Source: Thomasclavelia ramosa DSM 1402
Lineage (GTDB): Bacteria > Bacillota_I > Bacilli_A > Erysipelotrichales > Coprobacillaceae
Reading direction: 5' to 3'
Length of the DNA stretch: 64,000 bases
Assembly: GCF_014131695.1 (NCBI RefSeq)
Contig: NZ_CP036346.1
Location: 2,790,001-2,854,000 of the forward strand
The notes below the pieces were generated by a model. That model searched no databases. It had not been told where the DNA came from and saw nothing but the letters and a program-made list of their open reading frames with translations. The translations under genes were made by a program, and so were the position numbers. Every line of letters begins with the position of its first letter. Within the stretch, counting starts at the first letter, position 1. Of this stretch, positions 43,142-64,000 are shown in pieces.

Positions 43142-43708
43142 TCAACTGCGACGATTGACTACCTTTCCTCCTAGCATTAGGATAGCAAGTAAAGAAAACG
43201 AATATGTTAGAATTGAATAAACTGGAATATTTAAAAATCTTAAAACAATACAGGAAATACCTACAATTATGGATAGCAAGGTACTATAGAGGTGATACTT
43301 TCTTTGTTCCAATTCAGTTAATTGTTGATCGTTCGATTGTACTGGTGAAAGACTAATAATAATTATTAATGATATTGCGATGGCTATGCAAACCATAACA
43401 ATCGATACTTTTAAATATTCCCTTAATACCATATAAAGAGTAAAAATTGCAATATACAGACTCATGCATTCAAAATGTGTTGTGCAATAATAGCCTCCCG
43501 TAAATCTTCTTAAAATAAAGAATACCGCCTCATATATTATTACCTCTAGTATACAATTAAAGATGATCCCCACAACCAACAATAATAAGATACTAGCTAA
43601 TGCAGAAATCCACGTCTCTATCCCATATTTATATATTGCCCGATCTCTTACAATGATATTTTTTGTTTCTAACACTTGCGTTATCTTCTCTGCTAAGAAT
43701 TCAAACAA
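43142..43708 (-). CDS. AgrB-like membrane protein with Tyr at the catalytic His position
   Basis: A 188-residue membrane protein of the AgrB family, with the family motif RRFTGGYYCTTHFEC and about five helices. In AgrB the motif is GGyH...C with His and Cys as cysteine-protease residues. Here Cys81 is kept but the aligned His position 74 is Tyr (codon TAT, one base from CAT), while another His stands four residues further (position 78). The start is set at TTG 43708, five bases after a GGTGA-type site; a GTG at 43717 overlaps that site. It is divergent from a LytTR regulator. No AgrD-like peptide is seen beside it. It may be inactive, use a shifted His, or do something else. Confidence 0.75.
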   Translation of the reverse strand: MFEFLAEKITQVLETKNIIVRDRAIYKYGIETWISALASILLLLVVGIIFNCILEVIIYEAVFFILRRFTGGYYCTTHFECMSLYIAIFTLYMVLREYLKVSIVMVCIAIAISLIIIISLSPVQSNDQQLTELEQRKYHLYSTLLSIIVGISCIVLRFLNIPVYSILTYSFSLLAILMLGGKVVNRRS

Positions 43709-43765
43709 AATCTTCACCCCTCGCTATTAAAATTATCATAATTTAAATGCCCTGTCCGCACTTTT

Positions 43766-59059: not shown

Positions 59060-59714
59060 TTAAAGGAATAAAATAATTTATTGCCCCACCGATTGAACTG
59101 TACGTGCAGGTCTAGTATACGGCTCTACATTTATATCAAATTACAAACTCTTAAGATAGTAATTTAGGCGATGTACCAATCCAGGTCTTTCCCTTTCTTA
59201 ATACCTAATATTTTCGGTAATATAATAAAGTTTATGACATTCATCCTACTATACCGCCCTAATTCTATATTAGCACATTTAAAGATGTCTTCATTACTAA
59301 ATTTGCACTCTATAAACGTTTTAGTCCTCCAGTATCTCTACCTACTATGACTTCATCTAACTTCTTACGATAAACCTTTTTCTACCGAGGATACTATCAT
59401 TGATTTTAAAGTTTACTAGACTTCCTCGTCCATAAAGCCTCTCGAAGTAGAGCATGAATCCTAATTCTTTCACAATGTCTTGATTTACTGTCTTAGTCTT
59501 ACATATACCATTTGGACTTTGGTTTGTAGCGCAACCTTATCCACCATTTAGCCTCATTAAGTTCCTGTTCACATGTTCAAAAGAATCGCTACATCACATT
59601 ACTTCCTTCACCCATGTCATTACTGTCAACAGGTTGTGGTTTTCTACGCTTGACGGTAACTACCTGTGGTTGGTTTATCTCTAACTGAATTCATGCCAGC
59701 CATGCCCGGCACAC
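59060..59714 (-). mobile_element. Decayed group IIC intron
   Basis: The minus strand begins GUGUGCCGGGCAUGGC at 59714, nearly that of the Oceanobacillus iheyensis group IIC intron, and continues with matching domain I blocks (GACAUGG..GAAGGAAG, GAACA.GUGAACAGGAACUU, AUGAGGCUA, UACAAACCAAAGUCC). A domain V-like hairpin GAGCCGUAUAC...GCACGUACAGUUC lies at 59092-59130. The reverse transcriptase is absent: only a short stretch with stops remains. The 5' end sits 3 bases after a terminator hairpin, the usual target of class C introns. The 3' boundary is approximate. Length is about 650 bases, against about 2 kb for a full copy. Confidence 0.87.
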
Positions 59715-60033: not shown

Positions 60034-60144
60034 TTATTTACTTGGTTTTTTTGGTCTATAATAATCACAAGGTGAACAATTATAACCATTAAGTTTTACT
60101 TTTTCTATTCTTTTTTTAATAACTTTTTTAATCATATTTTTCAT
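60034..60144 (-). CDS. agrD: AgrD-like cyclic peptide pheromone precursor
   Basis: A 36-codon ORF with GGAGG eight bases upstream of ATG 60144. It has AgrD layout: a basic amphipathic N-terminal helix (MKNMIKKVIKKRIEKVK), then NGYNCSPCDYY, then a short charged tail RPKKPSK with Pro spacing like the PxxP of AgrD tails. A Cys in the core (Cys23 or Cys26) would form the thiolactone ring with the carboxyl of a residue a few positions on. It follows agrC by 83 bases in the agrB-agrA-agrC-agrD order. The tail is basic, unlike the acidic staphylococcal type, and two Cys are present. Confidence 0.75.
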   Translation of the reverse strand: MKNMIKKVIKKRIEKVKLNGYNCSPCDYYRPKKPSK

Positions 60145-60210
60145 CTACATATCCTCCTCACTTCTAAAATATAACATAAATCGAGATAATGTTTTTTTAC
60201 ACCTCCTCAT
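60145..60210 (-). CDS. 21-residue ORF coupled to agrD
   Basis: ATG at 60210 with AAGGAGG 11 bases upstream; the frame ends with TAG at 60145, directly joined to the agrD ATG (TAGATG). The peptide starts MRRCKKTLSRF and ends RSEEDM. It may be a second small peptide or a translational-coupling leader for agrD. Its reality is open: short, and the ribosome-binding site is a bit far. Confidence 0.35.
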   Translation of the reverse strand: MRRCKKTLSRFMLYFRSEEDM

Positions 60211-62125: not shown

Positions 62126-62625
62126 TTTAATTCCTCCCCTCTTATCACTCTCATCAATACTATTACAAAATAATTAACCATATTGATTTGATAAACTATA
62201 CCTGTATTAAATAATACTATTATCAATATATAGAATAAATTAAAAATAATTATTTTTTTATATCTATATTTAAATAATAAATATAATGATATTCCTATTC
62301 CTATAAAATAAAATATTTCAACATATGCTACTATCCTACTCATAAAAATACAAAAAATAAAGTTTAACATCGTCAGTAAATAACAATTTCTAAAAGTATC
62401 GGCATGATAACCATCTAGATATTTTCGCCCGGCTACAAAACAGGCACAAATAATCAAGATACTCAGTGCATCCATAAATAATAGACCAATTATATAGACT
62501 GATATGATCGTTATAACCTGTGTCAAAATAAGTTCGAGCAAAAAGCGCAGATCTTCAACATTTTCTTTATCGACTAGCCCTCTATTATATAAGAGCCAGG
62601 CCATTTTGCGACAATAATTTTCCAT
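62122..62625 (-). CDS. agrB: AgrB-type pheromone-processing membrane protease
   Basis: A 167-residue AgrB with about five membrane helices. The catalytic His74 and Cys81 are in RKYLDGYHADTFRNC, fitting the GGyH...C pattern with six residues between. It cleaves and cyclises the AgrD precursor. First gene of the locus, preceded by a GGGGAG site. It has its own promoter and an inverted repeat in the gap to the GH1 gene. Confidence 0.9.
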   Translation of the reverse strand: MENYCRKMAWLLYNRGLVDKENVEDLRFLLELILTQVITIISVYIIGLLFMDALSILIICACFVAGRKYLDGYHADTFRNCYLLTMLNFIFCIFMSRIVAYVEIFYFIGIGISLYLLFKYRYKKIIIFNLFYILIIVLFNTGIVYQINMVNYFVIVLMRVIRGEELK

Positions 62626-62637
62626 AAAACTCTCCCC

Positions 62638-62663
62638 TTTGTAGAATATTTTAACACATTCTA

Positions 62664-62667
<4 letters not shown>
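62638..62667 (-). promoter_or_regulatory. agrB promoter with overlapping inverted repeat
   Basis: TTTGTAGAAT and ATTCTACAAA form a perfect 10-bp inverted repeat with a 10-base spacer. Inside the spacer is a -10 TAAAAT (62653-62648) paired with TTACAG (62676-62671) 17 bases upstream. A bound protein here would cover the promoter. The -35 lies in the terminator of the GH1 gene. Confidence 0.55.

Positions 62668-64000
<1,333 letters not shown>

Follow-up and report, generated by a model that had tools for sequence, protein, structure and literature searches.

An unannotated 36-codon reading frame of Thomasclavelia ramosa DSM 1402 is, judged from sequence, a real gene for an AgrD pheromone propeptide that annotation has overlooked. 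It stands last in a putative agrB-agrA-agrC-agrD operon, and its product is placed by profile comparison in a divergent AgrD subfamily of gut Erysipelotrichales. The best reading of the aligned peptides is that AgrB would remove the tail YRPKKPSK and that the pheromone ring would be closed through Ser24, giving a five-residue Ser24-Tyr28 lactone.

Little is charted of the agr pheromones that gut commensals make, and this type escapes searches that look for a ring Cys or rely on the standard AgrD model. Should Ser be the nucleophile, lactone autoinducing peptides (AIPs) would be the rule in a common gut order, not an oddity of a staphylococcal group and enterococci. An association of charge between AgrB and AgrD offers a simple candidate rule of substrate choice by AgrB.

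Loci and peptides compared

The window is the whole 64-kb stretch of DNA that was analyzed, from a genome in a single contig of 3.25 Mb. AgrB loci were gathered from the order with PF04647, which was present in 69 of 209 genomes, and the adjoining small ORFs were taken. Sixty-five peptides were gap-free in the core; 31 others, whose cores were read by eye, brought the total to 96. Some AgrDs entered the census through a pattern requiring Cys, Ser, or Thr ahead of the tail. Named members of the window's genus in the comparison were Erysipelatoclostridium sp. An173 and a Thomasclavelia MAG.

The operon and its propeptide gene

Features of the operon are listed in Table 1. The genes run agrB-agrA-agrC-agrD, all on the minus strand, with agrD last and 2 kb from agrB. 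The agrB/agrA and agrA/agrC junctions are 4-nt overlaps, and the propeptide start lies 83 nt past agrC. The AgrB motif stretch, RKYLDGYHADTFRNC, keeps the catalytic Arg, His, and Cys, with His and Cys seven apart. Consistent with an AgrC/AgrA pair, the sensor is a multi-pass GHKL protein (about seven hydrophobic segments; H-box KHDLKNH at 246) and the regulator is a LytTR protein with a phospho-Asp (Asp in LLDIDMPDIDG).

The propeptide ORF translates to MKNMIKKVIKKRIEKVKLNGYNCSPCDYYRPKKPSK. An earlier note on this DNA had reported a strong ribosome-binding site, a pair of Cys residues (positions 23 and 26), and an RPKKPSK tail, and all are read in the sequence, the site being GAGGAGG 8 nt from the ATG. 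Its proposal that an unannotated AgrD-like precursor completes agrB-agrA-agrC agrees with the operon, the domains, and the homologues described below. Only two ORFs in the window combine a strong Shine-Dalgarno sequence, an ATG, and a length of 28–60 aa, and the propeptide ORF is one of them. It alone among the window's 862 open frames carries [CST]x4Y[KR]P[KR][KR] near the C-terminus. These features, with homologues that follow agrC in other genomes, argue that the ORF did not arise by chance. The tail has a net charge of +4 and lacks Asp and Glu; the helical moment of the leader, 0.351, is reached by 39% of shuffles.

A 21-codon ORF (MRRCKKTLSRFMLYFRSEEDM; 60145–60210, minus strand) has AAGGAGG ahead of it, and its stop abuts the propeptide ATG (TAGATG). 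It could couple translation of the propeptide to agrC or be there by chance.

Table 1. Coordinates of the predicted agr operon and propeptide features in the window
Feature	Coordinates	Strand	Basis
agrB-like membrane peptidase, 167 aa	62122..62625	-	PF04647 57.0 bits against cut-off 23; R67/H74/C81 intact
AgrB Asp71 codon, three before catalytic His	62413..62415	-	co-varies with AgrD residue 30
agrA-like response regulator, 221 aa	61460..62125	-	Response_reg 38.1, LytTR 30.6 bits (Pfam)
agrC-like sensor kinase, 411 aa	60228..61463	-	HATPase_c_5 56.9 bits (Pfam), GHKL domain
Shine-Dalgarno GAGGAGG	60153..60159	-	8 nt before propeptide ATG; read from sequence
agrD-like propeptide gene, 36 aa	60034..60144	-	ATG start, TAA stop; homologues beside agr genes
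Presumed leader, residues 1-20, basic and hydrophobic	60085..60144	-	sequence
Cys23 codon (-8 from tail Pro)	60076..60078	-	Cys also in L058, L059, L061 of subfamily
Predicted ring S24-P-C-D-Y28	60061..60075	-	column S73/C18/T5 in 96 AgrD-like peptides
S24 codon, predicted lactone nucleophile	60073..60075	-	same alignment column of 96 peptides
Cys26 codon (-5 from tail Pro)	60067..60069	-	Cys in no other peptide of the set of 96
C-terminal tail Y29-RPKKPSK	60037..60060	-	predicted to be removed by AgrB; alignment and tail statistics

Homologues and family placement

A search of 98 related genomes found homologues in other genera with 55% and 44% identity (E 3.7e-7 and 8.9e-5). Both lie directly downstream of a homologous agrC (L058 in genome G013 and L059 in G019), and each has a strong ribosome-binding site; the peptides are MKLINKIANTLICQVKKSNYNCSPLGFYKPKK and MVLIKKVARIMIERVKETNYNCSPAGFYKPKKLFKKD, respectively. 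A profile of 12 peptides, run on 316 genomes of the order, matches 21 of them in nine genera, the three weakest matches being near chance, and nearly all the strong matches adjoin agr genes. Synonymous and nonsynonymous codon changes in close homologue pairs (7:4, 4:7, and 6:1) are compatible with coding and too few to serve as proof. A class-level peptide search outside the order returned chance-level matches only. A check of relatives, named in advance, finds the ORF conserved beside agrBCA genes. The suggestion of a new AIP type in gut Erysipelotrichia is borne out as a distinct subfamily in gut Erysipelotrichales.

The window peptide matched no Pfam or NCBIfam model, and the curated AgrD model, TIGR04223, gave no match at E 10. 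With that model three relatives score 13–14 bits, short of NCBI's cut-off of 19, which one subfamily member, the L072 type, narrowly passes with 19.3. By hhalign, the subfamily profile matches the profile of other AgrDs over its whole length (probability 90%, E 1.7e-7, score 40; 20 column-shuffled controls reached no more than 6.7), and S24 falls on the Ser column of the other AgrDs. The peptide thus has the agr-gene adjacency, profile-level homology, and Ser at −7 from the tail Pro that mark an AgrD, and lacks TIGR04223 recognition and an acidic C-terminal tail. Subfamily tails are 5–10 residues long and usually without Asp or Glu; in the other AgrDs the median length is 15, and only 2 of 50 tails are acid-free. 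The positive tail had been called unusual for AgrD, which is correct for AgrDs generally and incorrect within the subfamily, where a basic tail is normal. Literature accessible without subscription yielded no account of this AgrD type, of AgrDs with Thr, or of any AgrD from these bacteria.

A second agr locus (L068) lies at about 426 kb on the chromosome of the same genome. It resembles the window locus in its acid-type AgrB (DGYH), Ser-Pro core, and basic tail (DNYSPGGMYKPTRNKK). It differs in its gene order, A-C-B-D, in the overlap of the peptide with the agrB end, and in its peptide, MAIKKKVVSLVKKVSKKYADNYSPGGMYKPTRNKK, from which Cys is absent entirely. A locus of this type is also found in two congeners (L066 and L067).

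Around the window operon, the neighborhood is conserved in congeners and the agr cassette is not. At the same genomic spot, G001, G004, and G007 have an orphan LytTR response regulator with 46–48% identity to the window AgrA (L279:4872–5564, L281:9797–10465, and L283:8086–8778), and agrB, agrC, and the peptide are absent there. An intact agrB is missing next to three subfamily peptides (L059, L061, and L118). The cassette is probably often gained and lost, since congeners lack it and relatives have a broken or missing agrB. Searches for related loci gave no match in genome contigs with AgrB alone, only the two already-known congener loci with three congeners, and none in viral contigs; matches in the plasmid search were distant Paraclostridium AgrBs.

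Several relatives carry damaged copies. The agrB at L118:4280–4900 (minus strand) has three in-frame stops in an otherwise intact frame, and its agrC, agrA, and basic-tail peptide are intact; this locus possibly senses a signal that it has stopped making. Upstream, at L059:2214–3300, the end of agrC and the leader of the peptide recur in degenerate form, which suggests tandem duplication and then decay of an agrC-agrD module. At L063:4572–4700 (minus strand), the acid-type AgrD core SLSLWGLCKPTKKK is out of frame with the ATG, and this copy is therefore frameshifted or misassembled.

Ring nucleophile

Position −7 from the tail Pro, occupied by Ser24 in the window, is Ser in 73, Cys in 18, and Thr in 5 of the 96 AgrD-like peptides of the order, a 96 of 96 nucleophile column that is not wholly independent because of the pattern requiring Cys, Ser, or Thr and the by-eye reading of cores. 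The same column in the 65 aligned peptides holds 51 Ser, 9 Cys, and 5 Thr. Among the AgrB/AgrD pairs with an acid-type AgrB, 16 of 16 have Ser there, the second-locus pair included. The earlier note had supposed that a choice between Cys23 and Cys26 decides ring size; the constant nucleophile column is instead that of Ser24. Cys is present in the Cys23 column of 6 of the 96 peptides, and of only four in the subfamily (window, L058, L059, and L061), always as CSP. The Cys26 column varies freely, with Cys in the window peptide only. As a ring residue, this Cys, unique among 96 peptides, would give a ring of only three residues, and it is very unlikely to be the nucleophile.

Thr occupies the nucleophile column in L073, L236, L074, L241, and L242 (e.g., LPHTWIWMYEPEKP); in the AgrB tree these loci are spread over two or more distinct branches. 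These AgrDs are predicted to make Thr lactones.

We consider it fairly probable that the four genes form an agr quorum-sensing operon working through a Ser24 lactone, as follows. AgrB would bind the propeptide leader at the membrane and recognize the basic tail (Arg30 and its neighbors) via the acidic Asp71 near its catalytic His. Cleavage after Tyr28 would leave the peptide held as an acyl-enzyme on Cys81, and attack by Ser24 would release the lactone S-P-C-D-Y, preceded by exocyclic residues of which the last is Cys23. Another protease would remove the leader. The AgrC-like kinase would sense the lactone outside the cell, and the LytTR regulator would change transcription, probably including that of its own operon. 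Some observations fit this scheme poorly. The four closest peptides all retain Cys23, which would be unneeded if purely exocyclic, leader amphipathicity is no higher than that of shuffles, three subfamily peptides are without an intact adjacent agrB, and a search upstream in the window found no site for the regulator.

Cys23 is a possible nucleophile in place of Ser24. The same AgrD system would then yield a six-residue thiolactone, C-S-P-C-D-Y, with Ser24 inside the ring. Cys is chemically the better nucleophile, all four of the closest peptides share the CSP, and the nucleophile Cys of other Bacilli families occupies this same −8 position (e.g., GCAWWWFDEP). Against these points stand the order's nucleophile column at −7 and the remaining subfamily, including the genome's second locus, which can only use Ser because Cys is absent from the −8 column. 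On balance we regard closure through Cys23 as rather unlikely.

That the peptide stays uncyclised, as a linear signal or as a small cationic bacteriocin with AgrB or some other transporter as its exporter, is improbable. It is basic, short, and without the usual acidic tail, the homologues without an adjacent intact agrB would suit such a role, and an ABC transporter and a carrier-protein-like ORF lie near L061. However, S24, Y29, and P31 are invariant, the profile matches AgrDs, and the AgrB catalytic residues are intact. Very improbable is a bicyclic signal special to the species, in which the Ser24 lactone is joined by a Cys23-Cys26 disulfide: the CxxC spacing (CSPC) it calls for is found only in the window peptide among the 96, yet Cys26 is unique in a freely variable column, and we know of no bicyclic lactone and disulfide among AgrD products. 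A spurious ORF, suggested by nothing except short length, is scarcely credible and was rejected, given the conserved homologues, agr-adjacent position, and strong ribosome-binding site.

Charge association between AgrB and AgrD

The AgrBs of the order conserve the catalytic His and Cys in 106 of 108 and the Arg in 103 of 108. Three residues before the catalytic His, subfamily AgrBs have Asp or Glu (rarely Asn or Gln) and most other AgrBs have Gly. Subfamily AgrDs have Lys or Arg (once Thr) at the position of Staphylococcus aureus E34. A separate branch has Lys at that AgrB position and Glu in AgrD. In an unbiased scan, AgrB D71 with AgrD R30 ranked first of 3,444 column pairs (z 9.06; next 4.94). 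By charge, 13 pairs are acid/basic, 1 acid/other, 1 other/basic, and 75 other/other; L184, which pairs AgrB Asp with AgrD Glu, is a counterexample.

Acid-type AgrBs group together on the tree, which leaves too few independent events for a decisive tree-aware test; one independent pair was found on well-supported branches. A single candidate for a correlated reversion, L198/L204 with Gly and Gln, has moderate support. Other Bacilli families contained no acidic-AgrB case and so offered no replication of the charge rule outside the order. A sequence search of a PDB copy did not find a solved AgrB structure. The association is suggestive at the level of the clade, with its one counterexample. We tentatively propose, as a general picture on the doubtful side, that gut Erysipelotrichales make mainly Ser and, on a few branches, Thr lactone pheromones under a one-residue charge code, in which Asp/Glu, Lys, or Gly three before the AgrB His would pair with Lys/Arg, Glu, or Gln, respectively, before the AgrD tail Pro.

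Comparison with known agr systems

Like the AgrD/AgrB systems of staphylococci, Listeria, and Clostridium, the window locus has a short leader-core-tail propeptide beside agrB, agrC, and agrA. The register is that of S. aureus AgrD, in which the tail Pro is P35: the nucleophile stands seven before the tail Pro, and AgrB keeps its catalytic Arg, His, and Cys. In S. aureus, the ring residue is C28, the cut falls between M32 and D33, and cleavage requires D33 and E34 of the tail (PMC10196373). The window AgrD differs in having Ser for Cys and a basic 8-residue tail with Arg at the essential Glu34 position. It differs from TIGR04223-type systems in its failure to match the model and in its gene order, B-A-C-D.

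In the AIP of S. intermedius/pseudintermedius, Ser replaces the ring Cys to give a lactone (PMC10482373, PMC3673130). That Ser is an isolated switch in a Cys family, whereas Ser in Erysipelotrichales is the majority state of the order and is combined with another tail chemistry. Enterococcus faecalis GBAP is a Ser lactone closed from Ser3 to Met11 by an AgrB-type enzyme (PMC7028047). FsrD/GBAP has a nine-residue ring and fsrD lies within or in frame with fsrB, whereas the window has a predicted five-residue ring and a separate gene 2 kb from agrB.

Neighboring features

The operon is flanked by a GH1 glycosidase gene (62689 onward) on one side and a zinc-ribbon/DUF5685/DnaJ/DnaK set on the other. 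At 62626–62690 (minus strand), a terminator-like hairpin (CTGTAATGAC/GTCGTTACAG) with a T-run follows the GH1 gene. Past this hairpin, a perfect inverted repeat, TTGTAGAAT-N10-ATTCTACAA, overlaps the likely agrB promoter and is a possible operator. An upstream search for LytTR-type repeats found no regulator site in the window itself. The L059 peptide has an exact direct repeat upstream (ACGTTCGTTGC, 21-nt spacing), and weaker ones precede L061, L064, and L125. We claim no LytTR site, because the window has none and 25% of arbitrary 220-nt pieces match under the same rule.

In a second AgrB-like gene of the window (43143–43718, minus strand), Tyr replaces the catalytic His (GGYYC), and none of the neighboring frames resembles AgrD. 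This gene is probably inactive or repurposed. Group II intron RNA pieces (RF02001, 58.9 bits; weak RF01998) lie at 59324–59629 (minus strand), about 400 nt past the propeptide gene. They are a remnant, with no ORF for an intron-encoded protein nearby, and a stronger copy of the same intron family is found in congener locus L282 (9252–9546).
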